Assembly (NCBI GenBank): GCA_021325375.1
Contig: JAJPHG010000041.1
Location: 124,001 to 188,000 of the forward strand
Length of the DNA stretch: 64,000 nt
From: Alphaproteobacteria bacterium
GTDB lineage: Bacteria; Pseudomonadota; Alphaproteobacteria; Micropepsales; Micropepsaceae
Direction of reading: 5' to 3'
Shown here one piece after another: positions 1,173 through 64,000 of this stretch (the first letter of the stretch is position 1; each line of letters opens with the position of its first letter). The position numbers and the translations under genes were made by a program. Under the pieces are notes generated by a model, which saw only the letters and a list, made by a program, of their open reading frames with translations, searched no databases and was not told the DNA's origin.

Positions 1173-1176
1173 AACC

Positions 1177-4353: not shown

Positions 4354-4366
4354 AAGAGGACAAACG

Positions 4367-4996: not shown

Positions 4997-5003
4997 GAGC
5001 TTC

Positions 5004-5804: not shown

Positions 5805-5879
5805 AAGCGGCAACCCAAACGCAGGTTCGAGCGTTCCAGTCCTCCCGTGCTGATTGCAAGGGGAGCTGAGGAGATTCCC

Positions 5880-6710
5880 TTGTTGTCGGCACTGCATAGG
5901 ATTGCGACCTACCCTTTCGATCTCGACCATCCCGTCCTCGCGCGCTATCCGGCCATGAAGTTCGGCGATCTGGACGCCGTGCGTCATTTCGCGCGGCTGC
6001 TTGGCCCTTTGGCGGCACGTCTGTACCGCGGGCGGCGCGGCGGCGGGCTGGTGTTCACCTCGCCGCCGGTCTCCTCGCTTCCGAGCGGCGCCAACCTTCT
6101 TTGCGAGGCCGTGTATGCCGAGCTTCGGCGTCTCGGCCTCCCCGCCGGTCTCGAGACCCTTCGCCTGGAGCAAAATCCGCAGCCGTTCGAAAGCGAGGAG
6201 GAATTCCGGGCTCGCGGCGACTATGCCAAGCTCGATTGCGAGGCGCGCCTGCAGTCGCAATCGGCGCAAGCGCAGGACATCCGGTTCGACGCGCAAGCCT
6301 TCCGCGGCCGTCATGTCGTCTTCGTCAACGACATCAACGTCACCGGCGCACAGATGCGATGTATGCGCGCGCTGCTTGCGCGCGCGCAGCCGCGCAGCCT
6401 CGACTGGCTGCTCATCGTCGATGTTGCGCCGGAGATCGGCCGGCGCCATCCCGGCCTCGAAAGCGAGATCAACCATTCGCGGCTGGCGGAGGACTGCGAG
6501 CTGGTCTCGTTCCTGCGCCGGTCCGAGCTCCGCTACACGGGCAAGTTCGTTGCGCGGCTGCTGTCCTTCGGCGGTGAGCGCCTCGCCGGGATCTTCCGGC
6601 AGCTCGACGCCGCCACCCGCAACGCGATCCGCGACGCGGTCGCCCGTGAAGGCAGCTACTCGCAGAGTTTTTTCTCCGAGAAGATCGCCGCCGCATGCGA
6701 GGGCGCGTGA
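5880..6710 (+). CDS. Phosphoribosyltransferase-like protein
   Basis: A cytosolic protein of about 276 aa. The PRPP-binding-type motif is clear in HVVFVNDINVTGAQMRCM, and an earlier strand GLVFTSPPVSSLPSGANLLCEAVY matches the N-terminal part of PRTase folds. It carries no obvious second domain. I chose TTG 5880 because GAGGAG lies 6 bases upstream; the frame also allows GTG 5847, which would put that ribosome site inside the gene. It is flanked on both sides by VanX-like genes, which suggests that the three act together, possibly on a nucleotide or a peptide conjugate. The substrate is unknown. Confidence 0.7.
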   Translation: MLSALHRIATYPFDLDHPVLARYPAMKFGDLDAVRHFARLLGPLAARLYRGRRGGGLVFTSPPVSSLPSGANLLCEAVYAELRRLGLPAGLETLRLEQNPQPFESEEEFRARGDYAKLDCEARLQSQSAQAQDIRFDAQAFRGRHVVFVNDINVTGAQMRCMRALLARAQPRSLDWLLIVDVAPEIGRRHPGLESEINHSRLAEDCELVSFLRRSELRYTGKFVARLLSFGGERLAGIFRQLDAATRNAIRDAVAREGSYSQSFFSEKIAAACEGA

Positions 6711-6729
6711 GCCATGCTATGATCGCAGC

Positions 6730-7521
6730 ATGTTCGAGCTGGACCACAAGATCCCGATCATCGAGCCCGAGGTCTATGCGGGCGACTACACCGTCATAGC
6801 GTTCGATCGTGACGATCCGCGCTTCCGCGATCCGCTTGTGCGGCTGGAGAGCGTCGGCGTCGCCTACGAGTCGCATCACGCCCGCGACGATGGCGCCAAT
6901 TGGCCCTATCACTGCGCCATCGCGGGCGCGCGCAAGGACATGTGGCTGCGCAAGACCGCCGCGGAGAAGCTCGCGCAGGTGAATACGCACTTGACGCCGT
7001 TCGGCGCCGAGCTTCTCGTGCTCGACGGCTACCGCACCATCGAGTGCCAGCGTGGGCTGTGGGATTTCTTTTGGCAGGAGCACGCACGCGCGGACCCCGG
7101 CGCCACGGAGGAGGACTGCCGCGACTACGCGCTCGACCACGTCTTCGATCCGACGCCCTTCGACGAGACCGATCCGTCGACCTGGCCCGCGCATACCTGC
7201 GGCGCCTCGGTCGATCTCACCTTGCGCGACCGCGCCACGCGCCAGGTCCTCGACATGGGCGTGCGCTTCGAGGACATCTGTCCCGAGAGCGCCAATGACT
7301 ATTTCGAGCGGGAGCTGATCGCCGGACGCATAGCTGCGGACGACGGGAGGCTGTGGAACCGGCGCCTGATCCACTGGGCGATGAGCGCGGAGGGTTTCCT
7401 CAACGATCCCTTCGTCTTCTGGCACTACGACTGGGGCAATCAGCTATACATAAAGGTGCGCCGCGCGCTCTTCGCAGACGCACCCAAAGCCGCCTGGTAC
7501 GGCTATATCGGACCGCCATAG
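6730..7521 (+). CDS. VanX-like M15D family protein, copy 2 (catalytic Glu replaced)
   Basis: A 263-aa paralogue of the protein at 5004-5804, co-linear with it without gaps across the whole length: LVLDGYRTIE (Arg102), PAHTCGASVDLTL (His155, Asp162) and FVFWHYDWGNQ (His232) fall at identical residue numbers. As in copy 1, the general-base Glu of VanX is Val229. Both copies also share SHHAR.DG.NWPYH near residue 50, not a VanX hallmark, which suggests a separate M15 subgroup. It starts 19 bases after the phosphoribosyltransferase-like gene. The arrangement looks like a duplication that then enclosed, or was split by, that gene. Confidence 0.85.
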   Translation: MFELDHKIPIIEPEVYAGDYTVIAFDRDDPRFRDPLVRLESVGVAYESHHARDDGANWPYHCAIAGARKDMWLRKTAAEKLAQVNTHLTPFGAELLVLDGYRTIECQRGLWDFFWQEHARADPGATEEDCRDYALDHVFDPTPFDETDPSTWPAHTCGASVDLTLRDRATRQVLDMGVRFEDICPESANDYFERELIAGRIAADDGRLWNRRLIHWAMSAEGFLNDPFVFWHYDWGNQLYIKVRRALFADAPKAAWYGYIGPP

Positions 7522-7596
7522 CCAAAATCTTCGTGATCGCCATTGACGCCCGTGCGCGCCGTACCGAGATATGGCGCACACATCGAGGGGTTATTC

Positions 7597-9627
7597 ATGA
7601 TCCGAAGCATTCTGTTCGCTTGTGCGGCGCTTTGCGCGTCCCAGGCTCTCGCCGAGACGCCGGTCGACCAGCTCGCCAAGCCGCCCAAAGACGCAACAGT
7701 CTGGACGCTCACCTCCAGCAACGGCGCCTCGCGCCACGGCCAGGTATCGATGTGGACGACGCCCGACGGCACGCACTGGTCGCGCTTCAGCTTCAACCTG
7801 CGCGGCTTCGTCAGCGAGACGGACGAGCAGAACCGCTTCGCGCCCGACGGCTCGCTGACCAGCATCGTCGTGCGCGGCAAGACCCCGCAGGGCGACGCGG
7901 CCGAGAGCTACGAGGTCAAGGACGGCACGTACACCTTCACCAGCCCCGTCGATCACGGCACGGGCAAGGCCTCGCCCGACCTCGTCTATGTCGCGTTCGG
8001 CGGCACGATCGATTCCTTCAACCCGATCATCGACAAGATGATGAAGTCGCCGGACCATTCGGTCGGCCTGCTGCCGTCCGGCCGCGGCGCGATGGAGAAG
8101 CTCACGACGCTGGAGGTCTCCAACGGCAAGGAGAAGAAGACGCTGACCGCCTATGGGATCACCGGCTTCGGCCTCTCGCCGCAGCCGGTGTGGATGGACG
8201 GCGACAAGCTGTTCGGCGTCGCCGGCGTGGTCTCGTTCCTGCCCGAGGGCTGGGAGAAAGCCGGCGAGGCGATGAGCAAGGCGCAGGACGATGCGCTCGC
8301 CAAGCGCGCGCCCGCGCTGATGGCCGCGATCGCCAAGACGCCCGCGGGCCCGGTCGCGTTCAAGGACGTCAAGCTCTTCGACTCCGACGCGCTCAAGTTC
8401 CGCGACCACGAGACGGTCGTGGTCGACGGCGGGCGCATCACCGAAGTCGGCGAGAACGCGAAGATCCCGGCGAATGCGCAGGTGATCGACGGCGCGGGCA
8501 AGACGCTCGTGCCCGGCCTTTGGGACAACCATCAGCATTATGGCGACGATTCCACCGGCCCGCTGCTGCTCGCGTCGGGCATCACCAGCGTGCGAGATCC
8601 GGGCAACCAGCCCGAGGAACTGATGGCGCGCAAGAAGCGCATCGACGATGGCCAGCTCCTCGGCCAGCGCATCGTGCCCTCGCTCCTGATCGACGGACCG
8701 GGGCCCTACACCGCCCAGGTCGCGGTCGTCGTGCACAATGTCGACGAGGCGCTGGCGGCGGTGCACCGCGCCAAGGACAGCGGCTATTTCGGCATCAAGA
8801 TCTACGGCTCGATGGATCCTGCCTGGGTCAAGCCGATGGCCGACCTCGCCCATCAGCTCAGCCTGCACGTCCACGGCCACATCCCGCACGGCATGCGCCC
8901 GCTGGACGCTGTGCGCGCGGGCTATGACGAGATCACGCACATCAATTTCGTGATGATGCAGGCGATGCCGGACGACATCGTCAAGAACTCGAACGGCATG
9001 AACCGTTTCGTCGGCACCGGCAAATACGCCAAGGACGTCGATCTGCATTCGCCCGCGATGACGGCCTATCTCGACGAGCTGGCACAGCGCCACATCGCGG
9101 TCGATCCCACGCTGGTGACGTTCGAGGGCCTCTACGTCCCCGACGCGGGCACCTACCCCGCCGCCGACGCGCCCTATATCGACACGCTGCCGTCGCAGTT
9201 CGCGCGCGGCTTCCTGCAGACCGCGATGGCGCCGACGCCCGATCTGTCGCGCGCCGACATGCGCGCGAGCTTCGCCAAGCTCAAGGCGCTGATCCCCGAG
9301 CTCGAGCGCCGCCACATCCGCCTGCTCGCGGGCACCGACGGCGTGGGCTTCGAGTTGATCCGCGAGCTCGAGCTCTATGTCGAGGCAGGATTGACGCCGG
9401 AAGAGGCGCTCGCTTGCGCCACGATCAACCCGGCGGTCGTCTACGGCATGGCGGACAAGACGGGCTCGATCGCCAAGGGCAAGCTCGCCGAGCTCGCTCT
9501 GATCGACGGCGATCCGTCCAAGAAGATCGGCGACCTTCGCCAGGTTGAGCTCGTGATGCGCGACGGCAAGCTGATGAAGGCCTCCGACCTGCGCGCCTCG
9601 CTCGGGATCTCGGGGCCGCCGAAGTAG
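7597..9627 (+). CDS. Exported amidohydrolase-family metal-dependent hydrolase
   Basis: A 676-aa protein with a signal peptide (MIRSILFACAALCASQALA, cut near residue 19) behind a GAGGGG ribosome site. The C-terminal two thirds is an amidohydrolase barrel: VPGLWDNHQHYG gives the HxH metal pair at residues 312/314, LHVHGHIPHG (about 424-430) and THINF supply further His ligands, and GTDGVG (about 580) the terminal Asp, followed by the usual GSIAKGKLAELALID beta-sandwich return. The first ~200 residues form an extra domain I cannot assign. Likely a periplasmic hydrolase of cyclic amides, dipeptides or similar; substrate not predictable. Confidence 0.85.
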   Translation: MIRSILFACAALCASQALAETPVDQLAKPPKDATVWTLTSSNGASRHGQVSMWTTPDGTHWSRFSFNLRGFVSETDEQNRFAPDGSLTSIVVRGKTPQGDAAESYEVKDGTYTFTSPVDHGTGKASPDLVYVAFGGTIDSFNPIIDKMMKSPDHSVGLLPSGRGAMEKLTTLEVSNGKEKKTLTAYGITGFGLSPQPVWMDGDKLFGVAGVVSFLPEGWEKAGEAMSKAQDDALAKRAPALMAAIAKTPAGPVAFKDVKLFDSDALKFRDHETVVVDGGRITEVGENAKIPANAQVIDGAGKTLVPGLWDNHQHYGDDSTGPLLLASGITSVRDPGNQPEELMARKKRIDDGQLLGQRIVPSLLIDGPGPYTAQVAVVVHNVDEALAAVHRAKDSGYFGIKIYGSMDPAWVKPMADLAHQLSLHVHGHIPHGMRPLDAVRAGYDEITHINFVMMQAMPDDIVKNSNGMNRFVGTGKYAKDVDLHSPAMTAYLDELAQRHIAVDPTLVTFEGLYVPDAGTYPAADAPYIDTLPSQFARGFLQTAMAPTPDLSRADMRASFAKLKALIPELERRHIRLLAGTDGVGFELIRELELYVEAGLTPEEALACATINPAVVYGMADKTGSIAKGKLAELALIDGDPSKKIGDLRQVELVMRDGKLMKASDLRASLGISGPPK

Positions 9628-9635
9628 CATCATTG

Positions 9636-9727
9636 ACCCTCCCCTTGAGGGAGGGTCGAAAAATGCAAAGCATTTTTCGGGGAGGGGTGACGGCGGCGAG
9701 ACCGGTCCCCTCCCTCAAGGGGAGGGT
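9636..9727 (+). repeat. REP-like nested palindromic element
   Basis: Two perfect 20-base inverted arms (9636-9655 and 9708-9727) enclose a second perfect hairpin with 10-base arms (9657-9666 and 9670-9679, loop AAA). The unit lies in the 3' flank of the amidohydrolase gene and just before the D-cysteine desulfhydrase-like gene. It is non-coding and may act as a terminator or be a mobile REP/MITE-like repeat of this genome; only one full copy is in the window. Confidence 0.85.
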
Positions 9728-9799
9728 TGAAGTGGAAGCGTGCTTGCCGCCACAGCGCGGATTGGCCACACTCCGCCGCCATCCGAACCGAGCGCCGCC

Positions 9800-10804
9800 G
9801 TGCATCTCTCCCGTTTCCCCCGCCAGCGTTTCGCCCATCTGCCCACGCCGCTCGAGCCGATGGAGCGGCTGTCGAAGCATCTGGGCGGACCCAGGCTCTG
9901 GATCAAGCGCGACGACTGCACCGGGCTTTCGGGCGGCGGCAACAAGACGCGCAAGCTGGAGTTCCTGATCGGCGACGCGTTGGCGAAAGGCTGCGACACC
10001 GTCATCACCCAAGGCGCGACACAGTCGAACCATGCGCGCCAGACCGCCGCCGCCGCCGCGCGCTTCGGGCTCGAATGCCATCTGCTGCTCGAGGACCGCA
10101 CCGGGTTCCAATCACCGGACTACACGCTGAACGGCAATGTCCTGCTCGACCGCCTGCACGGCGCGCATCTCTCCAAACGCTCCGGCGGCACCGACATGAA
10201 TGCGGAGATGGAGACGCTCGCCGCCGAACTGCGCGCGAAAGGCAAAAAGCCCTACGTCATCCCGGGCGGCGGATCGAACGCGGTCGGCGCGCTCGGCTAC
10301 GCGAATTGCGCCTTCGAGCTGGTGGCGCAGGCGAACGAGCGCGGCTTGAAGCTCGCCCACGCCGTGCACGCGACCGGCAGCGCCGGGACTCAGGCCGGCT
10401 TCGTCACCGGGCTCGTCGCGATCAATTCCGGCATCCCCGTGCTCGGCATCGGCGTGCGCGCGCCGAAGGAAAAGCAGGAGCAGGCCGTGTTCGCGCTCTG
10501 TGAACGCACCGCCGAGCATCTTGGCGTGCCCGGCATCGTGAAGCGCGAGCACGTCGCGGCGAATTGCGACTATGTGGGTCCCGGCTACGGCCTCCCGACC
10601 GAGGGCATGGCGGAAGCGGTGAAATTGCTCGCGCGTCTGGAAGGCATCCTGCTCGATCCCGTCTACACCGGTAAAGGCATGCACGGGCTGATCGATCTCG
10701 TCGGCAAGGGCTTCTTCGCCAAGGACAGCGACGTCGTGTTCCTGCACACCGGCGGATCGGCGGGGCTGTTCGCCTATCCCGACGCGTTCGATCTGCCGTC
10801 ATGA
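9800..10804 (+). CDS. D-cysteine desulfhydrase / ACC deaminase-like PLP enzyme
   Basis: A 334-aa fold-type II PLP enzyme. [30 protein letters not shown] is the standard opening of D-cysteine desulfhydrase; the Schiff-base Lys is in [26 protein letters not shown] follows, the phosphate-binding loop is [11 protein letters not shown], and the end is [28 protein letters not shown]. It probably deaminates D-cysteine or a related D-amino acid to pyruvate, ammonia and sulfide. GTG 9800 fits the family's usual N-terminus; an upstream GTG at 9740 would add 20 unrelated residues. The stop overlaps the racemase start (ATGA), coupling the two. Confidence 0.85.
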
Positions 10805-11511
10805 GCCAGCCGGAAATGATCGCGGGCGTCATCGGCGGCATGGGGCCGGAGGCGACGGTCGATTTCCTGCGCCGCGTGGTAGCCGCCACTCCGGCCGCGG
10901 ACGATGTGGATCACATCCGCGTCCTCGTCGACAACAATCCGAAGATTCCGTCGCGGCTCGCAGCCCTCGTCGACGGAAATGGCGAAGATCCTCTGCCTAG
11001 CCTGATCGCCATGGCGCTCGGCCTGAAGCGGCAAGGTGCCCAATTCCTGGTCATCCCCTGCAACACCGCGCACTACTACCTGCCGCGTATCGCCGAGGCC
11101 GTCCAACTTCCGGTGATCGATATGGTTGGCCTCGCAATTTCGAAGCTTGGAGAATTTTCGCCAAGGCCACGCAAGATCGGCATGCTCGCCTCACCCGCAG
11201 TGCAAAAAGTCGGGCTCTACGCCCATCGCCTGGAGGACAAGGGCTACATCGCGCTATTTCCCGATGATGAAGGTGAGGCGCGCATGCTGGGCGTCATCCG
11301 CGCAGTTAAGGCAGGCCGCGCGACCGATGAAATCAAGCGCGACTACGACGATGTCGCGTCCTCGCTCGAACGCGCCGGTGCCGATGGATTCATAATCGCC
11401 TGCACGGAGCTTTCCGTGCTCGGTCCGCCACAAAGCACGCGACTGCCATGGGTCGATGCTCTCGAAGAACTCGCAAAGACAACAGTTTGGGTGGCAAAAG
11501 GCGCTATTTGA
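10801..11511 (+). CDS. Aspartate/glutamate racemase family protein
   Basis: A 236-aa cofactor-independent racemase-fold protein. It opens with [14 protein letters not shown] and has the two catalytic Cys motifs, [10 protein letters not shown] and [10 protein letters not shown], each in its expected half. It probably interconverts L- and D-forms of Asp, Glu or a related amino acid. Its start overlaps the stop of the D-cysteine desulfhydrase-like gene, so the pair is likely translated together and handles D-amino acids. Its last 8 bases overlap the convergent acetamidase gene. Confidence 0.88.
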
Positions 11512-12511
11512 ACACCCCCTTCGGCAGCATCACGTGGACGCCCTTGTTGCGGTCGACGACTTCAGTGACGTCGACGTCGCCGGCTACGCTCACGAGCATG
11601 TACGCGTCGTCGCGGCTCATATGTTTCGCCGAGACCAGGAAGTCCACCATCTCGCGCACGGCCTTGTGGGCTGCGATGGAGAGGTCGTCGTCGAAGCCCA
11701 TCGCGATGTAATGCGTCGGCGTCTCGGCGCGCGGGTAAGCCACGTGCAAATCCTTGCGCACGACGAATTCCAGCGTGCCGATGAGCGAGGTCTCCATCGC
11801 GGTGACGTCGACCTCGCCGTTGCCCTGGCCGGCATGGCCGTCGCCGATCTCGAACAGCGCGCCCTTGTTCCACACCGGAAGATAGAGCGTCGTGCCGGCG
11901 ACCAGCTCCTTGTTGTCCATGTTGCCGCCGTTGATCGTGGGCGGCGTGGAATCGTAGCGTCCGAAATCGGCCGGCGGCGCGACGCCCATGCTGCCGAAGA
12001 ACGGATGCAGCGGGATCTCGATCCCGGGCCCGAAATTCGCGACCATCCGCTTCCTGTCGAGCGGGATGATCTTGATGCGCGAATAGGGGAAATCGTCGGT
12101 GAGGATGCCCGCCCCGTAGCGGAAGCCGTTATAGGCATAGGGGATCGCAAGATCGATTTTCCGAATGTGGATCTCCAGCGTGTCGCCGGGTTCCGCGCCT
12201 TCGACGTAGACGGGGCCGTTGAGGATATGCCCGCCCGGCCCCTTGTCGGTCACCTTCGCGAAGACGTCGCGCAGCGCCTGCTCGACGTCGCCGGGCGCGA
12301 CGCCGGCTTTCTCCAGCCCGATGGGACTGTTGGTGAGCAGCGTGCGGAACACGACCGTATCGCCCGACTTGATGCGCAGCACCGGCGCCCGCGTCGCGTC
12401 ATAGTTGCCCCAGGCGACCGTGTCCGGCGCGGCGTTGAGGGTGAAGGTCGCGGCGCGGGCGGCAAAGGGTGCCAGCGTCAGCAGAATCAAAGACGCAAGG
12501 ATCGTTTTCAT
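11504..12511 (-). CDS. Exported acetamidase/formamidase family protein
   Basis: A 335-aa protein with a signal peptide (MKTILASLILLTLAPFAARA). The body matches the FmdA/AmdA family: GGHILNGPVYVEGAEPGDTLEI, the NGFRYGAG region, PLHPFFGSMGVAP, NGGNMDNKEL, and GDGHAGQGNGEVDVTAMET, which contains the conserved acidic and His residues. It likely hydrolyses short amides to ammonia and a carboxylic acid in the periplasm; many relatives are cytosolic, so export is notable. Transcribed alone, convergent with the racemase gene and divergent from the membrane protein at 12605. Confidence 0.88.
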   Translation of the reverse strand: MKTILASLILLTLAPFAARAATFTLNAAPDTVAWGNYDATRAPVLRIKSGDTVVFRTLLTNSPIGLEKAGVAPGDVEQALRDVFAKVTDKGPGGHILNGPVYVEGAEPGDTLEIHIRKIDLAIPYAYNGFRYGAGILTDDFPYSRIKIIPLDRKRMVANFGPGIEIPLHPFFGSMGVAPPADFGRYDSTPPTINGGNMDNKELVAGTTLYLPVWNKGALFEIGDGHAGQGNGEVDVTAMETSLIGTLEFVVRKDLHVAYPRAETPTHYIAMGFDDDLSIAAHKAVREMVDFLVSAKHMSRDDAYMLVSVAGDVDVTEVVDRNKGVHVMLPKGVFK

Positions 12512-12604
12512 CGACCATCCATCACGGAATGTATGCTCACTTGACCAGATTTATCCCGGTTCGTCTAATGGCGATAAGGCAATCGCCGAGCGCGGGGGGC
12601 GGGC

Positions 12605-13876
12605 ATGGAAGATGTCGCAAAGCATGCCCTGCTGACGCGGGTCGACATCTCTCTGGCAGCGAGAGCAGCGGCCAATCTCTATTCCGCGCCCTCGACGTTT
12701 CCCCTGCTGATGTATTTGCTGCTCGGCCTCCTGGCAGCGGGCGTGACTGTCGGCGAAAAGACGGCGTACGTGATCGCCATGGTTTCGGTCGCCATGTTCT
12801 CTTGCTACATCACGAGGAAGCGGCTTGATCGCGTCGCCCACGTTGTTTTCTTGATCTTCATTGGTGTTTTGGCGGGCACCGCCGTCGTTGCGGTGTGGCT
12901 GTCCGCGGACGGCTCGGATGGCTTGTACGCAACCCTTCTTCCCATGGTCATCGCCGGCCTTCTGGCCGTCGGCGGATTTCTCGCCTGGCTGGCTTGGCCT
13001 TCCATCCGCCTCCTCGTCGCTCCGCCGACGATGCTGGGGCCGACGCCCGTGGAGATGAACCGAAAGGTCAACGCGTTCCTTGCCTCCAACAGGCAGGCAC
13101 TTCCGCTGCTTCATAAGCCGGAGAACCCCATTCGCGCCACGGTGTATTTCTCGCTCTTCCTGCTTATCCTGATCACGGCCTTTCTGGCTTCCGCTCTGCT
13201 CAGGCAGGTGAGCCTTCTGCCGTTCCTCATCGCGGGTTCGGCTGCGTGGTACATGTGGCGCAGGCACTATGCCTGGAGCGCCGAGAGGCTCATGGCGCAT
13301 GACAAGCGCGCGCCGGTCGTCTTCCTGCGGTCTTTCGTCGACGATGGCGTCAGATTGCGTGCGTCCGGCTTCGTGCCCAGATGGCGCGCGCGCACCATCG
13401 AGGAGGCGATGGCGCCCTTGGCGCGCGGAGTCGGGCCGTTCGTCACTTTCGCGAATCCCGCCAGCCGTCTTCCTCCACTCGGGGCTGCGAAGGCGTTCCA
13501 TACCAACGACACATGGCAGGGCGCCATCGAAGAATGGATCGTCGGCGCAAGATTGATCGTCTTGGCCGCCGGGCGGACCGACTCCGTGAAATGGGAGCTG
13601 GAAAGAATCGACGCCGTCGGCGCGATGCACAAGCTCGTCATCCTGCTGCCGCCGGACCGCAAGGGCCACAAAGGCGAGCGGCTCCAATGGCTGCGCGCCT
13701 ATTTCGCGGCCACCTCTTATGAAGCCGCGATAGGCGAGCTGGACGTCGACAGGACGACAGCACTGGTGTTCCTGCCCGGCCGCCTTCTGGCGATCGGCAA
13801 AAGCTCCACGAAAAAGAGAGAAATCGACTTCATCGTCGCGTTCAACACGGCGATATATGCCACCTTGATGAGCTGA
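12605..13876 (+). CDS. Multi-pass membrane protein with a TIR/SEFIR-like C-terminal domain (unassigned)
   Basis: A 423-aa protein I cannot name. Hydrophobic segments at about 32-49, 54-69, 78-99, 108-130, 178-198 and 202-218 anchor the N-terminal half. The C-terminal half is soluble and shows a recurrent pattern: APVVFLRSFVDD (237-247), TIEEAM (264-269), GPFVTFANPASRLPPLGAAKAF (277-298), Trp304, and ARLIVLAAGRTDSVKWELERI (315-335). A Rossmann-like strand followed by a late Trp-Glu pair (330-331) is reminiscent of TIR/SEFIR-type effector domains, but I cannot confirm this. It stands alone between divergent and co-directional genes. Function unknown. Confidence 0.7.
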   Translation: MEDVAKHALLTRVDISLAARAAANLYSAPSTFPLLMYLLLGLLAAGVTVGEKTAYVIAMVSVAMFSCYITRKRLDRVAHVVFLIFIGVLAGTAVVAVWLSADGSDGLYATLLPMVIAGLLAVGGFLAWLAWPSIRLLVAPPTMLGPTPVEMNRKVNAFLASNRQALPLLHKPENPIRATVYFSLFLLILITAFLASALLRQVSLLPFLIAGSAAWYMWRRHYAWSAERLMAHDKRAPVVFLRSFVDDGVRLRASGFVPRWRARTIEEAMAPLARGVGPFVTFANPASRLPPLGAAKAFHTNDTWQGAIEEWIVGARLIVLAAGRTDSVKWELERIDAVGAMHKLVILLPPDRKGHKGERLQWLRAYFAATSYEAAIGELDVDRTTALVFLPGRLLAIGKSSTKKREIDFIVAFNTAIYATLMS

Positions 13877-13917
13877 AGCGGCATGAGGATCGCCTTGCGC
13901 TGGACCGGAGACATCGG

Positions 13918-15132
13918 GTGAACCGCAAATTCGCGTTCTGGCTGGTCGCGGGGATGGTGGGCGGCATCGCCTTCGGGCTGGGCTGCCATGCCTGGCTCGC
14001 GCCCGCGCAACTTGGCCTCGCGACGGACGTCCTCGGCCTCGTCACCACCATCTTCCTGCGCCTGATCAAGATGATCATCGCGCCGCTCGTGTTCTCGACC
14101 CTGGTCGCGGGCATCGCCCATATGGGAAGCGCGTCCGAGGTCGGCCGCATCGGCGCCAAGGCGCTCGCCTGGTTCCTGTTCGCCTCGATCGTGTCGCTGT
14201 CGCTGGGACTTGCGATGGTGCACCTGTTCCAGCCCGGAATCGGCATGAACCTGCCGAGCGGCGGCGGGGGCCAAGCAGCAGGCGGCATGTCGCTCACCGA
14301 CTTCATCGCCCATCTCGTGCCGCGCTCGATCGCGGAGGCGATGGCGAACAACGAGATCCTGCAGATCGTCGTATTCTCCGTCTTCGTCGGCACCGCCATC
14401 GCCGCCGCGAAGGAGCGCGCCGAGGCCGTCGTCGCCCTCGTCGAGCAGATCGCGGGCATCATGTTCCGGGTCACCAACTATGTGATGCTGTTCGCGCCCG
14501 CCGCAGTGTTCGCGGCCCTCGCCTCCACCGTCGCCACCCAGGGCGCGGGCGTGCTGGTGGTCTATGCGAAATTCGTCGGTGGGTTCTTCGTGGCGCTGGT
14601 GATCCTGTGGGCGCTGCTTCTCACGGCGGCCTATCTTGTCCGCCGCGACCTCAAACTGCTCGGCGCCGCGCGCGGACCGATGCTCATCGCCTTCTCGACG
14701 GCAAGCTCGGAGGCCGCCTATCCGCAGCTGCTCGAACGGCTCGAAGGCCTCGGCCTGTCGCGGCGCATCGTGAGCTTCGTGCTGCCGCTGGGCTATTCCT
14801 TCAACCTCGACGGCGGGATGATGTACCAGACCTTCGCGGTCGTCTTCATCGCGCAGGCCTACGGCATCGATTTGAGCGCGATGCAGCAGCTGAGCCTGCT
14901 GCTGCTCCTGATGGTCACGAGCAAGGGCATGGCCGGCGTGCCGCGCGCCTCTATCGTGGTGGTCGCGGCCGCGCTGCCTTATTTCCATCTTCCCGAGGCC
15001 GGGCTGCTGCTGGTCCTCGCCGTCGACCACATCCTGGACATGGGAAGAAGTGCTACGAATATATTGGGGAACGCGGTCGCCTGCGTGGTGGTGCAGGCTT
15101 GGGAAGGTAAACGGGAGGAAACATCCGCATGA
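13918..15132 (+). CDS. Dicarboxylate/amino acid:cation symporter (DAACS family)
   Basis: A 404-aa inner-membrane transporter of the GltP/DctA family. It shows FLRLIKMIIAPLVFSTLVAGIAHMG, the serine-rich re-entrant loop FSTASSEAAYPQ (hairpin 1), the substrate and cation-binding GYSFNLDGGMMYQTF, and the second hairpin MVTSKGMAGVPRASIVV, ending with LDMGRSATNILGNAVAC. It takes up C4-dicarboxylates or acidic amino acids with H+ or Na+. The start is a GTG at 13918. The stop overlaps the following hydrolase gene by ATGA, so the two form an operon. Confidence 0.93.
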   Translation: MNRKFAFWLVAGMVGGIAFGLGCHAWLAPAQLGLATDVLGLVTTIFLRLIKMIIAPLVFSTLVAGIAHMGSASEVGRIGAKALAWFLFASIVSLSLGLAMVHLFQPGIGMNLPSGGGGQAAGGMSLTDFIAHLVPRSIAEAMANNEILQIVVFSVFVGTAIAAAKERAEAVVALVEQIAGIMFRVTNYVMLFAPAAVFAALASTVATQGAGVLVVYAKFVGGFFVALVILWALLLTAAYLVRRDLKLLGAARGPMLIAFSTASSEAAYPQLLERLEGLGLSRRIVSFVLPLGYSFNLDGGMMYQTFAVVFIAQAYGIDLSAMQQLSLLLLLMVTSKGMAGVPRASIVVVAAALPYFHLPEAGLLLVLAVDHILDMGRSATNILGNAVACVVVQAWEGKREETSA

Positions 15133-16202
15133 AGCTTCTTGACCGCGCCGCGTGCGCCCTGTTGCTGTTCTGTGGCGCCGCGCACGCAGACCCCGTGACG
15201 AAGGAAAGCGATTTCGTCGTCCACGATTTCAAGTTCCGCTCGGGCGAGACGCTCCCCGATCTGCGCCTGCACTACACCACGCTGGGGGCGCCGCATAAGG
15301 ATCGCCATGGCCATGTCGACAACGCGGTGCTCATCCTGCATGGCACCGGCGGTGACGGGCACCAGTTCCTCAGGCCGCAATTCTCGGGCGTGCTGTTCGC
15401 GCCCGGCGGGCTGCTGGATCCGGCGAAGTACTACCTCATCCTTCCCGACGGCATCGGCCACGGCAAATCGTCCAAGCCCAGCGACGGACTGCACGCGCGC
15501 TTCCCGCACTACGATTACGACGACATGGTCGCGGCGCATTATGCACTCGTGACCAAGGGGCTGCATGTCGACCATCTGCGCCTGGTGATGGGCACGTCGA
15601 TGGGCTGCATGCATTCCTTCGTCTGGGGTGAGACCTATCCCGATTTCGTCGATGCGCTGATGCCGCTCGCCTGCCTTCCCGTCCAGATCGCGGGCCGCAA
15701 CCGCATGTGGCGCAAGATGACGATCGACGCGATCAGGAACGACCCCGCCTGGGCGAACGGCGAGTACAAGGATCAGCCCCGCGCAGGCCTGCGCACCGCC
15801 GCCGACATGCTGATGATCGCGGGCGCAGCGCCGCTGCCGATGCAGAAGACCTGGCCCACGCGCGACGCGGTGGATTCGGGCGTCGACGAGGCGATGAACC
15901 GCTATCTCACCACCCTCGACGTCAACGACCTGATGTACCAGGTCGACGCCTCGCGCGATTACGATCCCTCGCCCAAGCTCGGCCTCATCACCGCGCCGGT
16001 GATGTGGGTCAACTCGGCGGACGATTTCATCAACCCGCCCGAGCTCGGCATCGCGGAGAAGGAGGTCACCGAGATCAAGCGCGGCCGCTTCGTGCTCGTG
16101 CCCTTGAGCGAGCAGACCCACGGCCACGGCACGCACACCTGGGCGGTGTTCTGGAAGGACCGGCTGGAAGAGCTGCTCAAGGAGAGCGAGCCCAAGCGTT
16201 GA
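15129..16202 (+). CDS. Secreted MetX-like alpha/beta hydrolase
   Basis: A 357-aa alpha/beta-hydrolase of the homoserine O-acetyltransferase (MetX) subfamily. Signal peptide cleaved after AHA (residue 20). FKFRSGETLPDLRLHYTTLG and NAVLILHGTGGDGHQF are the family's N-terminal strands, the nucleophile elbow is GTSMGCMHS (Ser157), the acid is probably in NSADDFINPPE, and the His in THGHGTHTW. True MetX is cytosolic and makes O-acetylhomoserine; export argues against that role here and for a periplasmic esterase or acyltransferase. Coupled to the upstream symporter by an ATGA overlap, which may import its product. Confidence 0.85.
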   Translation: MKLLDRAACALLLFCGAAHADPVTKESDFVVHDFKFRSGETLPDLRLHYTTLGAPHKDRHGHVDNAVLILHGTGGDGHQFLRPQFSGVLFAPGGLLDPAKYYLILPDGIGHGKSSKPSDGLHARFPHYDYDDMVAAHYALVTKGLHVDHLRLVMGTSMGCMHSFVWGETYPDFVDALMPLACLPVQIAGRNRMWRKMTIDAIRNDPAWANGEYKDQPRAGLRTAADMLMIAGAAPLPMQKTWPTRDAVDSGVDEAMNRYLTTLDVNDLMYQVDASRDYDPSPKLGLITAPVMWVNSADDFINPPELGIAEKEVTEIKRGRFVLVPLSEQTHGHGTHTWAVFWKDRLEELLKESEPKR

Positions 16203-58662: not shown

Positions 58663-59412
58663 TCAGATATCCCCGAGCACGGTCCGCGCCCGTTCGCGGT
58701 AGGAACGGCTGAGCGTGAGCCTGGTCCCGTCGCGCAACGTGACGGAGCGGTCGCCGTTGAACAGCGGCTCGACCGACTGCACCGCGTCGGTGCGCACGAT
58801 GGTCGAGCGGTGGATGCGCAGGAACACCTTCGGATCCAGATGCGCCTCGAACTGGCTCATGGTTTCGCGCACCAGATGCACGTCCTTGCCGCAATGCAAT
58901 GAGAGGTAGTTTCCAGCCGACTCAACCCAATCGATCGCGGAAGTGCTGACATAATCCGTCCGACCGACCGACTTTATGGGAATGCGGTCCAGGTGCGGAC
59001 CGCGTGCCGCGACATCGCCGGCCCGCCGCGGCTGGAGACGCGCGCGCACCTTCGCCAGAGCCTGCCGCAACCGCTCGTGATCGAAGGGTTTGAGGAGGTA
59101 GTCCACGGCTTCGGCGGCGAAGGCCTGCACCGCGAACTCCTCGAACGCGGTGATGAACACGACGGCCGGGCGCTTGTCTGCCGGCAGGCGGCCCAGAAGC
59201 TCGAAGCCGCTCGCGCCCGGCATCTGCACGTCCAGCATCAGGAGATCGGGCTTGAGGCGGTCGATGTCCGTCATAGCCGTGTCGGCGTCGCCGCACTCGC
59301 CCACCACCTCGACGTCCGGCTCGTCGCTCAGATAGCGCCGCACGCGCGCGCGCGACAGCGGCATGTCATCGACGATCAAGGTCCTGAGTTTCACGGAACG
59401 CGAAGCCTTCAT
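58663..59412 (-). CDS. LytTR-type response regulator
   Basis: A 249-aa regulator with an N-terminal receiver domain (phosphoacceptor Asp in LLMLDVQMPG, acidic pair in LIVDDMPLSR, Lys in YLLKPFDHERL) and a C-terminal LytTR DNA-binding domain (SVGRTDYVSTSAIDWVESAGNYLSLHCG, FLRIHRSTIVRTDAVQSVEP). It is the partner of the overlapping kinase gene, whose last 47 bases it shares. An in-frame GTG at 59394 is an alternate start just before the receiver fold. Probably regulates extracellular polysaccharide functions. Confidence 0.93.
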   Translation of the reverse strand: MKASRSVKLRTLIVDDMPLSRARVRRYLSDEPDVEVVGECGDADTAMTDIDRLKPDLLMLDVQMPGASGFELLGRLPADKRPAVVFITAFEEFAVQAFAAEAVDYLLKPFDHERLRQALAKVRARLQPRRAGDVAARGPHLDRIPIKSVGRTDYVSTSAIDWVESAGNYLSLHCGKDVHLVRETMSQFEAHLDPKVFLRIHRSTIVRTDAVQSVEPLFNGDRSVTLRDGTRLTLSRSYRERARTVLGDI

Positions 59413-60079
59413 GGAACGGCAAGCTGATGCGCGCCATTAAACCCCCGCCTTCGCGAGGCTGCAATGCGAACACGGCCGCATCCCCGTAGACGTGGCGCAG
59501 ACGCGCACGGATGTTCGCAAGCCCGATGCCGAGCGACCCGCCGGCGCCGGACAGCCCCGGCCCCTCGTCCTCCACGTCCAGGATCAGGTTCGCTCCGTCG
59601 CGGCAAGCGCGGATGCGGATGCGGGCGATGCCGTCGGCGCTCATGCCATGCGTCAGCGCGTTCTCCGCCAGGGGCTGCATGACCATGCCGGGAAGACGCG
59701 CGCTGAGGGCGGCGGGATCGATGTCCAGACCATATTGCAGGCGGTCGCGCAGCAGCACCTTCTGGATGCCGAGATAGTGCTCGAGGAATGCGATCTCGTC
59801 GCGCAACGCGATCTCGTGCTGCTCGCCGTCGGCGAGCGACTTGCGAAGCAGCTGGCTGAGCTGGGTGATGACCTGGTCGGCCAGCTGCGGATCGTTGTAG
59901 CCCAGCTCGGAGATCGCGTTGAGCGTGTTGTAGAGAAAATGCGGATCGAGCTGGGTGCGCAGGCGGCGGATCTCCGCTTGCGCCAACCGCGCGCGCAGAC
60001 GCCGGCGATCGCGCCACAACAGCGCCGCCATCAACATCGCGCCTGCCAGCAATATCCATGGAATGACGGTGAACAGCAC
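59366..60079 (-). CDS. LytS/YehU-type sensor histidine kinase without sensor domain
   Basis: A 237-aa minimal kinase. One N-terminal membrane segment (LFTVIPWILLAGAMLMAALLW) and a short coiled linker lead straight into the His_kinase domain (phospho-His in LDPHFLYNTLNAISELG) and a GHKL ATPase (N-box LAENALTHGM, G-box VEDEGPGLSGAGGSLGIGLANIRARL). Relatives carry 5-8 membrane helices or an extracellular sensor; here none exists, so another protein probably supplies the signal. Starts 3 bases after the glycosyltransferase stop. Confidence 0.9.
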   Translation of the reverse strand: MLFTVIPWILLAGAMLMAALLWRDRRRLRARLAQAEIRRLRTQLDPHFLYNTLNAISELGYNDPQLADQVITQLSQLLRKSLADGEQHEIALRDEIAFLEHYLGIQKVLLRDRLQYGLDIDPAALSARLPGMVMQPLAENALTHGMSADGIARIRIRACRDGANLILDVEDEGPGLSGAGGSLGIGLANIRARLRHVYGDAAVFALQPREGGGLMARISLPFHEGFAFRETQDLDRR

Positions 60080-60082
60080 GTC

Positions 60083-61960
60083 TCAGCTCTCGCTCTTGAA
60101 CCCGATCCAGGCCGCCTCTTCCGTCAGCACGGTGCCCATCAGATCGATGCGGGCTTTGACGTCGTCCTCGCGACAGACGTAAAACCATTTGACCCCCAGG
60201 CCGCAGACGCGGAAGTCGCGCCCCTTGGTGGGTGGCCGGAAATCGGCGACGACGCTGGACGTGAAGGTGAGCGCGACCTGCCGCTCCTGCCCTGGTCCCG
60301 CATCGAGCGTGATCGCGACGGTCCTCTCCTCGTCGCCGCGCAACGGAACTGAAATTCGCTGCCCGTCGGAGGTATGGACGATGCCGGTCCCGTCCTGGCC
60401 CTGCACGCCTCTCAGGCCGAGATAGACGCAGATCCTCGCATCGCGCGCATCTTCGACGACGAAAGCGAGCGTCGCCGGCCCACGTTCGCGGATCCAGCAA
60501 CCCCAGGGCTCCGCCCACCACCAGCCGCGTCCGTTGCGGAAAATCTCGCCGCGCCGCGCATATCGACCGCGCGCGCCCTGGTTTTCGCCTGCGAGACTGT
60601 AGAACACCCCGGTTTTGACCGGCACCGGATAAATGCTGTCGTCCGGGATCTCCTGCGGCGCGCGGGCCGGCGTCTCTTCGGCCCAACTTTGCAATTGGCG
60701 GACGATCTGGGCGCCGATCACCTGCCAGCTTCGCGGATGGAATTCGGCCTCGATCTTGCGCTCGCGCGCGCGCCGGTTGTCGGAATCGAAAACGATGCGC
60801 TCGACCGCTTCCAGGAACGCGCGCTCCGAGTTCACGTCGAAATATTCCGCGAATGCCCCGCCCGCCTCCGGCAGCGAAGCGACGTTGGAAACGATCGGGA
60901 CCTTGCCGAAGCAGAGCGACTCGGTCACGGGCAACCCCCAGCCCTCGTAGAGGCTGGGATAGAGCGTGCAGATGCACCCCTCATAGAGCTTGCCCAGCAC
61001 GACGTCGGAGATATTCGAAAGGATCACGACTTGGCGCATGAGCTCGTCGCTCGCCGCCAGGCGCGCATGCGCCTCGCTGTTCAGCCAGCCGCGCTGGCCG
61101 ACGCACACCAATTTGGGGCAGTTCTCCTCGCCGTGACGGCGCAGAAGCTTGAGCCACGCCGCGAACGCCAGCGCGTGGTTCTTGCGCGGCTCGATCGTGG
61201 ACACGAAAAGCACGAAGCCGCCGCGCTCGAGCTCCAGCTCCTGGAGCGTCGCCTCTTCGCCGGATTCCTGTTGCCGGCCCGCGGTCGGTGCGTTGCGGAA
61301 ATCGGCGTCGAGCGTGATCACCGCCGCCTCGCGCTCGGCGCCTGCGCGGCGCGCGGCAGTGCGCAGATCCGCGAGCGTGTTGCGGGAATTCACCAGGAAA
61401 TAATCGGCGTGGACGAAGACGCTCTCGATCCATTCCTCGAAATTGTTGCGAAGCTCGCTGACGCAAAGCTCCGGCATCGCCATGGGAATGAGATCGTGGA
61501 TGAACGGAACATATAGAATGTCGAACCTGGCCTTGGCGAAGCGCACGCCGAGGAAATAGTTGTGCAGCCACCACGAGCTGCCGAGATTGAGCAGGACGGC
61601 GCCGAACGGGAACTTGAACAGCGTGCCCCGCGCGATCACCGCTTCGAGGGTCTCGGCCAGGGTGGCCCAAGCGCTTTCCGCGAAATCGCCCACGCTCATC
61701 CTGGACAAGGTCGCGAACAGCTCGCGCGGAATCTCGATCCAGTAGTTCGATTCCTTGGTGAAGCAAGCGATCGAGAATTCAAAGCCTGTGTCGCGGATCG
61801 CATATTCGACGACCTCGATCTGCACGCGCTGGATCCCCGTCGGCAGCCGCGCGCTGCGGAAATAGTTGACGACGTCGCTGACGTCGAAAACCACGTGAAA
61901 CGGGCGCACCCCGCCGGACGAAGGGGATTGGCCTGGACGCGCGTCGCTGGCGGAGTTCAT
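60083..61960 (-). CDS. Glycosyltransferase (GT4-like) with C-terminal beta-rich domain
   Basis: A 625-aa protein. Residues about 20-410 form a GT-B glycosyltransferase with the GT4 pattern: PFIHDLIPMAMPELC, YFLVNSRNTLADL, GFVLFVSTIEPRKNHALAF, NISDVVLGKLYEGCICTLYPSLYEGWGLPVTESLCFGKVPIVSN with the ExxxxxxE donor site. The remaining ~190 aa (GWWWAEPWGCWIRERGPATLAFVVED through FRVCGLGVKWFYVCR) look like a jelly-roll domain often seen in polysaccharide-modifying proteins. It heads the operon with the kinase, regulator and glycosidase, and diverges from the radical-SAM pair. Sugar donor unknown. Confidence 0.85.
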   Translation of the reverse strand: MNSASDARPGQSPSSGGVRPFHVVFDVSDVVNYFRSARLPTGIQRVQIEVVEYAIRDTGFEFSIACFTKESNYWIEIPRELFATLSRMSVGDFAESAWATLAETLEAVIARGTLFKFPFGAVLLNLGSSWWLHNYFLGVRFAKARFDILYVPFIHDLIPMAMPELCVSELRNNFEEWIESVFVHADYFLVNSRNTLADLRTAARRAGAEREAAVITLDADFRNAPTAGRQQESGEEATLQELELERGGFVLFVSTIEPRKNHALAFAAWLKLLRRHGEENCPKLVCVGQRGWLNSEAHARLAASDELMRQVVILSNISDVVLGKLYEGCICTLYPSLYEGWGLPVTESLCFGKVPIVSNVASLPEAGGAFAEYFDVNSERAFLEAVERIVFDSDNRRARERKIEAEFHPRSWQVIGAQIVRQLQSWAEETPARAPQEIPDDSIYPVPVKTGVFYSLAGENQGARGRYARRGEIFRNGRGWWWAEPWGCWIRERGPATLAFVVEDARDARICVYLGLRGVQGQDGTGIVHTSDGQRISVPLRGDEERTVAITLDAGPGQERQVALTFTSSVVADFRPPTKGRDFRVCGLGVKWFYVCREDDVKARIDLMGTVLTEEAAWIGFKSES

Positions 61961-62187
61961 GCGGAGTTGATGCGCCCCAAATTCGCGTGCAATTCAAGTT
62001 CCAGGCACGTACCCCAAGCAGCGCCATCCACCGTGGCGGTACCCTAGTGCGCGCAACCGCCGTTTTCCAGCCTCACCGCGGCAGTTGCACACGCCTAGAT
62101 AGATTTGTGTGCAATGCAAACCCGCGGACCTACACAAGCTGCAAGCGGTCTGGCAGACTGCCGCCGTTACCGCGCAGCAGGCTGGGC

Positions 62188-63624
62188 ATGAGCGTATCGA
62201 CCACCATAGGTCAAACTCCGCCGACCCTTCCCTCCCGGGCGCCGCTTTATTGTGACTGGCTTTGGCATTCGGTGACCGTGCTCTGCGACGGGACGGTGAC
62301 CTGCGGATGCTCCGATCCGTTCAAGACGCGCAATCACGGAAGCCTGAAATCGTCGTCGCTGCGCGAGATCTTCGCCGGAGCATTGATCGCGAAGCGGCGC
62401 GAGGATTTGCTCGCAGGCCATAAATGCCACAAATGCGCCCTGCACGACGGCGCCGAAGGCAAGGACCTGACGCCGAGCGGCCCATACCCGAAGAAGCTGA
62501 TGCTCGAGCCCACGATCAAGTGCAACATCCGCTGCATCAACGAGACGTGCAACATCGCCAACGACGCGGCCTTTCATCTGCGCCGCGAAGATTTCCTGTC
62601 ATGGCCGCTTTACACCAAGCTCATGGACGAGGCGGGACCGCATCTCCAGGAGCTCGTCTTCTACAATTACGGCGAGTCGTTCGCGCATCCGAAGGCGCTG
62701 GACATGCTCGCCTATGCGAAGAAGGTGAACCCGCGCATCAGGGTGGCGACCAGCACCAACGGGATTCTGCTGGCCCGCGACGGCATGGCCGAGCGCATCG
62801 TCGAGGAAGGCCTCATCGACGCGATCTGTTTCACCATCGGCGGCGTCGACCAAGAGACCTATGTCCGCTATCACAAGGCCGGATCGTTCGAGAAAGCGAT
62901 GGACGGAATGCGGCGCATGGTCGAGGCAAAGCGGCGCTTAAGCAAGTCCGCTCCGCTGGTGCACTGGCGCTACCTGCTGTTCAACTGGAACGATTCCGAC
63001 GAATGCATTGCGCAAGCGCTGCGCCTGCGCGAGGAAATCGGCGTCGACCAGTTCAAGTTCATGCTGACCGCCTCTCCGATCGAAGGCAGGTCGCTCAGGC
63101 GCGCGCCCGGAACGCCCGGATACGCCGCGATCAGGCAGTGGCTGGCATACCAGGACGACTATTCGGCGGACCCGCTTCAGGAAGCCGGCCTCTGGTCGCT
63201 CGAGAAAAGTCCGCGTCTCGGCCCTTTCAGCTGGACGGGGCGGACCGCGCGCGTCTGCATGAAGCCGGTCGACGGACAGGTCAATTTGCGCCTCGCGCGA
63301 ACGACGAACCCGGTCGCGCCGCCGCAAGCGGTGACGCTGCGCCTGCCGTGGCAGCATGAGGTGGCCGCCAATGTCGGCGCCGGCAAATGGGGCGACAACC
63401 TGATTTCGGTTCCCGTCGAGTTCCACGACGAGGTGCAGATAACGCTGGAGGTCGACCAGATATTCTCGCCGCTTCGGCATACCGACAGCCACGACAACCG
63501 GGAACTGGGCGTGATGGTATGTATGGACGGCGTCTCCGCCGCCCCCAATCCGTATCGAACCGCGGACGTGTCCGCGCTGAAGGTCAAGGGCTTGTCGCGC
63601 GGCAGCAGCCGGGAGCTCTTCTAG
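62188..63624 (+). CDS. Radical-SAM protein with N-terminal SPASM-like domain, copy 1
   Basis: A 478-aa protein. Residues 22-83 resemble a SPASM cluster-binding domain (TVLCDGTVTCGCSDPFK, GSLKSSSLREIFAGALIAKRREDLL, KCHKC) with Cys22, 33, 39, 41, 80 and 83. The radical-SAM barrel follows: EPTIKCNIRCINETC gives Cys112/116/121 (CX3CX4C, not CX3CX2C), then ELVFYNYGESFAHP and RVATSTNGILL. Residues about 375-470 are a beta-rich domain (IFSPLRHTDSHDNRELGVMVCM). The order SPASM then radical SAM is reversed from the usual. Starts at ATG 62188; the divergent glycosyltransferase suggests a polysaccharide or peptide modification role. Confidence 0.82.
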   Translation: MSVSTTIGQTPPTLPSRAPLYCDWLWHSVTVLCDGTVTCGCSDPFKTRNHGSLKSSSLREIFAGALIAKRREDLLAGHKCHKCALHDGAEGKDLTPSGPYPKKLMLEPTIKCNIRCINETCNIANDAAFHLRREDFLSWPLYTKLMDEAGPHLQELVFYNYGESFAHPKALDMLAYAKKVNPRIRVATSTNGILLARDGMAERIVEEGLIDAICFTIGGVDQETYVRYHKAGSFEKAMDGMRRMVEAKRRLSKSAPLVHWRYLLFNWNDSDECIAQALRLREEIGVDQFKFMLTASPIEGRSLRRAPGTPGYAAIRQWLAYQDDYSADPLQEAGLWSLEKSPRLGPFSWTGRTARVCMKPVDGQVNLRLARTTNPVAPPQAVTLRLPWQHEVAANVGAGKWGDNLISVPVEFHDEVQITLEVDQIFSPLRHTDSHDNRELGVMVCMDGVSAAPNPYRTADVSALKVKGLSRGSSRELF

Positions 63625-63647
63625 GTGACCGACAAGGAGCACTGGGT

Positions 63648-64000
63648 ATGAGCACCTCGACCGTCGTCGATCAAAGCCCGACGCCGTCCCCGGCCCAGGC
63701 TCAGGCTCCGCTCCATTGCGAGTGGCTTTGGAATACGGTCACGGTCCTCTGCGACGGGACGGTCACCTGCGGACTCGACGATCCTTTCAAGCTGCGCAAC
63801 CACGGAAGCCTGAAATCGGCATCGTTGCGCGAGATCTTCGCCGGCGCCGCGATCGCGAAGAGGCGCGAGGAGCTGCTCTCCGGCAAGAAGTGCTTCAAAT
63901 GCACGATGCACCAGAGCGCGCAGGGCCAGGATCTGACGCCGAGCAGCCCCTATCCCAGGAGGCTGGTCCTGGAGCCGACGATAAAATGCAACATCCGCTG
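63648..64000 (+). CDS. Radical-SAM protein with N-terminal SPASM-like domain, copy 2 (cut by window end)
   Basis: The first 117 residues of a paralogue of the preceding gene. It starts 23 bases after it behind AAGGAG. TVLCDGTVTCGLDDPFK, GSLKSASLREIFAGAAIAKR, KCFKC and LEPTIKCNIR repeat the copy-1 pattern closely, with Cys24, 35, 41, 82, 85 and 114; the extra Cys41 of copy 1 (CGC) is Leu here (CGL). The reading frame is open at the right edge, within the CX3C motif. The N-terminal 18 residues are unrelated to copy 1. Confidence 0.85.
   Translation, partial: MSTSTVVDQSPTPSPAQAQAPLHCEWLWNTVTVLCDGTVTCGLDDPFKLRNHGSLKSASLREIFAGAAIAKRREELLSGKKCFKCTMHQSAQGQDLTPSSPYPRRLVLEPTIKCNIR

Follow-up and report, generated by a model that had tools for sequence, protein, structure and literature searches.

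The 64,000-nucleotide window analysed here (Micropepsaceae, Alphaproteobacteria; GCA_021325375.1, contig JAJPHG010000041.1, positions 124,001 to 188,000, forward strand) ends in a tandem pair of genes for radical S-adenosylmethionine (SAM) proteins, denoted gene 1 and gene 2. It is close to certain that in both paralogues an auxiliary iron–sulphur domain precedes the catalytic core; the cysteine motif of the core is spaced CX3CX4C, rather than the CX3CX2C by which the radical SAM superfamily is recognised. The pair belongs to an as yet unnamed family. Gene 1 finds only two general domains in Pfam and stays below the cut-off of every NCBIfam model. We tentatively read the proteins as BtrN-like sugar oxidases or epimerases for envelope glycans, with an N-terminal Twitch domain and a CX3CX4C core, and give this reading as a whole slightly less than an even chance.

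The auxiliary domain precedes the catalytic core

Pfam models recognise both domains above their cut-offs. SPASM (PF13186, cut-off 21.5 bits) matches residues 22–83 of gene 1 (26.3 bits) and 24–86 of gene 2 (23.4 bits); Radical_SAM (PF04055, cut-off 29.5 bits) matches residues 121–249 (35.6 bits) and 111–253 (35.4 bits) respectively. A preliminary description of the window, made from the letters alone, had proposed tandem paralogues with a SPASM-type domain ahead of the radical-SAM site and had suggested this profile search as a check. The search bears the proposal out, and the alternative of a zinc or ribbon domain at the N-terminus did not come out. The relative in locus L025 (L and G numbers denote our loci and genomes) was not among the PF04055 matches at E 0.1.

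A profile built from 9 rows of N-terminal domains alone was searched against the open reading frames (ORFs) of 45 other radical-SAM loci and matched in 39 of them (E-values apply to this small set; the weakest listed is 0.0025). At ordinary radical-SAM loci (34 of 40) the match always lies behind the CX3CX2C motif (best L012, residues 285–353, E 2.2e-18); at the loci of NCBIfam family NF033640 (5/5) it always lies ahead of the motif (e.g. L102, residues 26–100, 2.3e-8). Since a profile of the N-terminal domain finds the C-terminal SPASM domains of ordinary proteins, the two are one domain, placed at either end.

Full SPASM domains carry seven or eight cysteines for two clusters. In 39 rows of the family, C22 is found in all 38 that have a residue there, C39 in 36 of 37 and C80 and C83 in all 39, while C33 and C41 are variable. 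Four near-invariant cysteines match a single auxiliary cluster such as that of BtrN, and on this pattern the N-terminal domain is predicted to be a one-cluster Twitch rather than a full SPASM. Both the C-terminal position and the seven or eight cysteines of the SPASM class are absent from genes 1 and 2; with the Twitch class, a truncated SPASM, they share the four cysteines, and from it they differ in the N-terminal position of the domain. The 'SPASM-like cluster' of the preliminary description thus holds as a Pfam match and gives way to Twitch on the conserved cysteines.

Structural comparison used predicted models. For the N-terminal domain (AlphaFold2; mean predicted local distance difference test score, pLDDT, 66.7; last 16 residues, including C83, under 50), the ten best matches, of 40, in the Protein Data Bank (PDB) are all chains of BtrN or anSMEcpe. 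With E-values from 0.43 to 3.8 these matches are weak; first among them is 4m7s (BtrN; probability 0.90, TMq 0.62). The model of whole gene 1 (mean pLDDT 65.0; residues 81–91, with C83, and 112–117, with C112 and C116, under 50) matches radical-SAM barrels spread across many chemistries.

The radical-SAM motif has an uncommon spacing

The motif reads CNIRCINETC in gene 1 and CNIRCTNETC in gene 2, a spacing on which the preliminary description had not remarked. CX3CX4C is found in 35 of the 39 family rows, and these 35 come from Acidobacteriota, Pseudomonadota and one unclassified bacterium; three rows have CX3CX2C (L055, L059, L067) and one has CX3CC (L028). The 30 Acidobacteriota rows have a further cysteine at the X3 place in 28 cases and isoleucine in two (L076, L091); since the X3-place cysteine can be replaced, the X4 cysteine is the constant one. 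All 45 other radical-SAM loci compared (36 distinct contexts; some proteins are represented by two loci) have CX3CX2C and none has CX3CX4C. The residues GE (162–163) of the core are invariant in all 39 family rows.

Non-canonical spacings have been published for GenD1 (CX4CX2C), HmdB (CX5CX2C), QueE (CX14CX2C), ThiC (CX2CX4C) and PhnJ (CX2CX21CX5C), none of the five being CX3CX4C (PMC4389238, PMC4340712). A literature search for CX3CX4C or CxxxCxxxxC with radical SAM returned nothing, in a collection of papers that was thin even for CX2CX4C; the string CX3CX4C by itself was listed once, for a ferredoxin review that lacks the term radical SAM (PMC11430716). Searching PDB sequences with the whole gene 1 protein gave one chance-level match (E 1.6).

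Relation to known families

PMC9012708 describes the auxiliary cluster domains of radical-SAM enzymes as C-terminal extensions, and the same collection of papers yielded none on an N-terminal SPASM in a radical-SAM protein. The N-terminal Twitch is nonetheless a kind already known, in NCBIfam NF033640 (N_Twi_rSAM), so that the earlier statement that the domain is always C-terminal in known proteins is not borne out in that form. NF033640 resembles the window genes in having a Twitch/SPASM-type domain before the core and in occurring, at least in genome G512, in tandem; its N-terminal domains are found at all five loci by the profile built from those of the window family, and its model matches 11 of 11 family members scanned in part (best E 5.5e-12). 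It differs in its motif, which is canonical CX3CX2C at all five loci, and in its C-terminal part. Its model, with a cut-off of 170 bits, gives gene 1 a score of 19.7 bits, and only for the N-terminal domain (residues 21–84). By score and motif, as far as sequence comparison goes, the window genes are set apart from NF033640.

BtrN (2-deoxy-scyllo-inosamine dehydrogenase) shares with gene 1 a single four-cysteine auxiliary domain and gave the best, though weak, fold match; the PDB search found no sequence match between them. As described in PMC9012708, BtrN carries out the two-electron oxidation of an aminocyclitol alcohol, with the four-cysteine auxiliary cluster the likely electron acceptor; unlike the window genes, it has a C-terminal Twitch and binds its SAM cluster through C16, C20 and C23, that is, CX3CX2C. 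Some of the closest cores in the genomes searched belong to ordinary radical-SAM/SPASM proteins of the type in L012, L016, L066 and L068, whose SPASM domains also rank with those nearest to the N-terminal domain; they too differ from the window genes in their C-terminal SPASM and CX3CX2C motif.

Relatives near envelope-glycan genes

At Planctomycetota locus L027, in a metagenome-assembled genome (MAG), a gene with N-terminal Twitch and canonical motif directly follows lpxB, in the same direction and with its start 15 bases behind it. Beyond, within 6 kb and on the other strand, lie lpxA, lpxC-fabZ, lpxD and a gene for a protein nearest UDP-GlcNAc 3-dehydrogenase (205.6 bits, under the cut-off of 450). 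In the Acidobacteriota, lpxC is found downstream and convergent at 8 of 30 loci (downstream flanks of about 1.5 kb or less). At gammaproteobacterial locus L020, kdsA is two genes on, after a pyrG-like gene (pyrG recognised by eye). Of 150 genomes, two contained NF033640, and models were applied to its neighbourhood in one of them, G512. There (L104, 3236–10144, G512:C19) four genes stand in tandem, one fused behind ABC_tran-Wzt_C, and adjoin ABC2_membrane, RmlD, RmlC and TylF genes, in a polysaccharide export locus with dTDP-rhamnose genes.

At Desulfuromonadaceae locus L028 a single protein joins methyltransferase and glycosyltransferase domains to a Twitch and a radical-SAM core; the flanks encode TylF and further methyltransferase domains, and the preceding gene has the ordinary order, core then SPASM. 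The two are very long adjacent genes (1598–8990), with both domain orders side by side, and may hold a clue to how the inversion arose.

The C-terminal beta-rich domain with the DNRELGV motif was credited in the preliminary description to the first gene only. It is present in gene 1 and equally in gene 2, where it lies beyond the window, as well as in the L020 and L025 members. An O-antigen-ligase-like protein in L029 (Wzy_C; 6453–8402) ends in a similar stretch (24% identity). This protein was found only through its end, which includes DNRELG. A PDB search with a profile of the C-terminal domain found no match.

Other contexts of the family

Upstream of the Acidobacteriota genes lie a STAS gene (28/30 loci) and an extracytoplasmic function (ECF) sigma-factor gene (27/30), and an 88-amino-acid protein is encoded between the STAS and radical-SAM genes at all 13 loci inspected of the 30. 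Locus L023 (6744–9329) exemplifies the order: ECF sigma factor, STAS, 88-amino-acid protein without Pfam family, radical-SAM gene. The 88-amino-acid protein has matches at 69–71% in three other genomes and none in 6 of the 10 carrier genomes searched, the window's own among them. It lacks cysteine and has a helical or coiled-coil look, by eye and from two sub-threshold Pfam matches.

At Beijerinckiaceae locus L025 the gene lies between a protease-like and a SIR2-like gene, the latter followed by Avs2. The region as a whole (1227–15680) is rich in defence genes, with Vsr, a cytosine methyltransferase, MzaB-like, SIR2-like and Avs2 genes. PADLOC gave no match for gene 1 or for the L025 member.

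Distribution and phylogeny

None of 59 other genomes of the window's genus holds a full-length relative, and two hold core-only matches. With no more than five candidates scored in each genome, 18 of the 385 genomes of the class match the family profile at E 1e-20; matches starting before profile position 68 occur in only two places, both in the window's own genome. In the phylum, 9 of 398 genomes match at E 1e-30; besides the window's own, one match reaches the N-terminal domain (L067, in G762), and its motif is canonical. A non-exhaustive scan of the genomes of 84,980 species with two short peptide patterns returned 10 loci: the gammaproteobacterial MAG (L020, 60% identity), the Beijerinckiaceae MAG (L025), four Acidobacteriota, one unclassified bacterium, the Planctomycetota MAG (L027), the Desulfuromonadaceae MAG (L028) and L029, the last a match to the C-terminal domain only. 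The reading frame of the L020 gene (7712–9092) is broken inside the N-terminal domain, by assembly error or because the gene is decaying. In the Acidobacteriota class of the genome that carries L024, 83 of 193 genomes match at E 1e-50, with one match each; the 30 highest-scoring were read residue by residue. A scan of viral contigs (37 stretches) found no relative, and the 11 plasmid records returned by tblastn all covered less than 80% of the query.

Two trees were built. The first included the motif columns, and rows L013_C, L019_C and L064_C were dropped from it as the motif anchor was not detected. In it L056 (CX3CX4C) joins canonical Planctomycetota rows weakly (84/56), and L065, whose sequence carries a C-terminal SPASM domain, falls within the family on a very long branch. 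The second left out the motif columns and L065, thinned the 30 Acidobacteriota rows to 12 and compared 21 N-terminal-Twitch rows with nine chosen C-terminal-SPASM rows. The 21 lie on one side of a branch and the nine on the other (94/90, below the starred level); the window genes are sisters (98/95), beside the gammaproteobacterial member (99/91). A necessarily multiple origin of CX3CX4C was considered and dropped: one origin is compatible with the tree test (p-AU 0.137), which does not show a single origin either.

The gene pair in the window

Coordinates are collected in Table 1. The preliminary description had begun gene 1 at 61987, where the frame, extended upstream, has a GTG; the residue numbers it gave (22–85) fit the ATG used here. 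The ATG of gene 2 is preceded by AAGGAG and lies 23 bases beyond gene 1. Gene 2 extends 1072 bases beyond the window, and the contig continues to 190467; 3′ of gene 2 lie a convergent 139-amino-acid ORF and a long ORF cut by the contig end. Genes 1 and 2 are 79% identical, with 0.136 non-synonymous (dN) and 0.635 synonymous (dS) substitutions per site (dN/dS ~0.21), values from which both copies look selected for. Recent acquisition was considered on composition and rejected, as the GC content at third codon positions of the pair (0.82–0.83) lies within the range of seven other genes measured (0.58–0.88).

The glycosyltransferase noted beforehand is indeed adjacent. It is divergent, with a gap of 227 bp from gene 1, and would therefore be on a transcript separate from that of the pair; by its position it is a possible partner. 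Among the 59 other genomes of the genus, 7 hold a match to it. In one of these (L119) a TPR-GT4 protein precedes two sulfotransferase-like genes, the first or second of which scores just over the cut-off and the other under it. The window's own genome has a second copy (L118, G000:C27), 52% identical, followed by a gene that by eye resembles the L119 sulfotransferase-like gene. An Rfam scan of window positions 60000–64000 gave no match.

Table 1. Positions of the radical-SAM pair, its domains and neighbouring genes in the window, and of one gene cluster in locus L027.
Feature	Position	Strand	Remarks
Radical-SAM gene 1, P0001, 478 amino acids	62188..63624	+	N-terminal Twitch, radical-SAM core, C-terminal beta-rich domain
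Radical-SAM gene 2, P0002, 474 amino acids	63648..64000	+	First 117 codons in window; ends at G000:C3:189072
N-terminal SPASM/Twitch-type domain, gene 1 residues 22–83	62251..62436	+	PF13186; Cys 22, 39, 80, 83
Radical-SAM cluster motif C112-X3-C116-X4-C121, gene 1	62521..62550	+	Non-canonical
Remaining radical-SAM core, gene 1, to about residue 309	62551..63114	+	YNYGE, TSTNG, FNWNDSD motifs
C-terminal beta-rich domain, gene 1	63235..63597	+	DNRELGV
GT4-type glycosyltransferase, P0003, 625 amino acids	60083..61960	-	Divergent; PF00534, 61.5 bits
LytTR response regulator and histidine kinase	58663-60079	-	Overlapping genes, same strand as glycosyltransferase, directly after it
L027 lipid A gene cluster with N-terminal-Twitch radical-SAM gene	1111-8771		Planctomycetota MAG; positions in L027

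Discussion

In the proposed mechanism, the SAM-cleaving [4Fe-4S] cluster would be held by C112, C116 and C121, the last of them on a loop lengthened by two residues relative to the norm. The Twitch would pack at the mouth of the barrel, in the place taken by C-terminal Twitch domains, and hold one four-cysteine [4Fe-4S] cluster near the substrate. A hydrogen atom would be abstracted from a sugar carbon and the sugar then oxidized, the Twitch cluster taking the second electron as proposed for BtrN; if the radical were re-reduced, the outcome would be epimerization. The substrate would most likely be an envelope-glycan sugar, of lipid A or a polysaccharide, which the C-terminal domain may help to hold, and the two gene copies may act on two positions or two sugars. 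That the substrate is a glycan is suggested by the L027 gene behind lpxB, by lpxC at 8 of 30 Acidobacteriota loci, by the NF033640 tandem in a Wzt/Rml context, by the L028 fusion to methyltransferase and glycosyltransferase, by the C-terminal domain in an O-antigen-ligase-like protein and by the divergent GT4 gene next door. The preliminary description had offered a permuted maturase or a sugar-modifying family: through the relatives the sugar link is likely, while for the maturase no precursor peptide could be made out by eye next to the pair, the 88-amino-acid protein of the Acidobacteriota being the only candidate.

Several observations weigh against an envelope-glycan sugar enzyme. The glycan part draws on relatives and one neighbouring gene, and most relatives sit elsewhere than in lipid A gene clusters. 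The lpxB link is one case, in a member with the canonical motif; 22 of 30 Acidobacteriota loci are without lpxC in the short flank examined, and what is constant there, the ECF sigma factor, STAS and 88-amino-acid proteins, gives no glycan support. The L025 gene lies among defence genes, and no glycan gene was recognised by eye near L067 or near L059, the second copy in Planctomycetota. Acidobacteriota members have a C-terminal domain different from that of the window pair. Profile comparison by hhalign, with few sequences on which to draw, put the probability that the pair's C-terminal domain recurs in the neighbouring glycosyltransferase at 0.2%, and the probability that it corresponds to the insert of NF033640 members at 0.5%; both ideas were dropped. 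The chemistry is deduced from sequence, the predicted N-terminal fold matches BtrN weakly (best E-value 0.43), and the predicted whole-protein fold matches many chemistries.

The proteins might instead be peptide or protein maturases, like many SPASM enzymes, with the 88-amino-acid protein of the Acidobacteriota as substrate or partner. Its conserved place at the 13 loci inspected and weak matches of SPASM peptide maturase models to the core would agree with this. We nevertheless think it unlikely: gene 1 falls far under the cut-offs of those models, the 88-amino-acid protein is unmatched in 6 of the 10 carriers searched, has no cysteine and looks helical, and no precursor-like small ORF was recognised by eye beside the window pair or the L025 gene.

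Somewhat less probable still, in our estimate, is that the CX3CX4C loop holds no SAM-cleaving cluster, the proteins being of a 'pseudo-SAM' kind in which the Twitch cluster is retained for a regulatory or electron-transfer role. Retention of the three motif cysteines, the third at X4 in 35 of 39 rows while the residue beside it varies, speaks for a working site, as do the invariant GE and the low dN/dS between the window genes. The idea draws on the pseudo-SAM family TIGR04347, which matches 8 of 11 members in part, on the CX3CC motif of L028 and on the fact that the Acidobacteriota genes follow those for a sigma factor and a STAS protein.

A maturase of a metalloenzyme or metal cofactor is improbable: TIGR04317 (tungsten-oxidoreductase maturase) and TIGR04311 (putative metalloenzyme maturase) match 11 of 11 members scanned and are the top two NCBIfam matches of gene 1 (72.1 and 63.5 bits), but against curated cut-offs of 380 and 400 bits and over the core only (residues 100–288), so that the matches are at superfamily level, and no tungsten-type oxidoreductase was recognised by eye among the window neighbours, where no dedicated search was made.

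For the envelope-glycan sugar enzyme one may go further and suppose that the third cluster cysteine, moved two residues outward, together with the N-terminal Twitch, alters the geometry of the SAM cluster and allows a reaction on lipid A or a polymer-bound sugar unlike that of any characterized radical-SAM enzyme; this is speculative, and we would not expect it.

A family with the same auxiliary domain at the other end of the protein offers a test of whether position in space or position in sequence matters, and also of the auxiliary cluster as electron acceptor. CX3CX4C, in Acidobacteriota and Pseudomonadota, is a natural variant of the superfamily signature, which searches demanding CX3CX2C would miss. 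If the glycan reading is true, radical chemistry would be part of building the sugars of the bacterial envelope.

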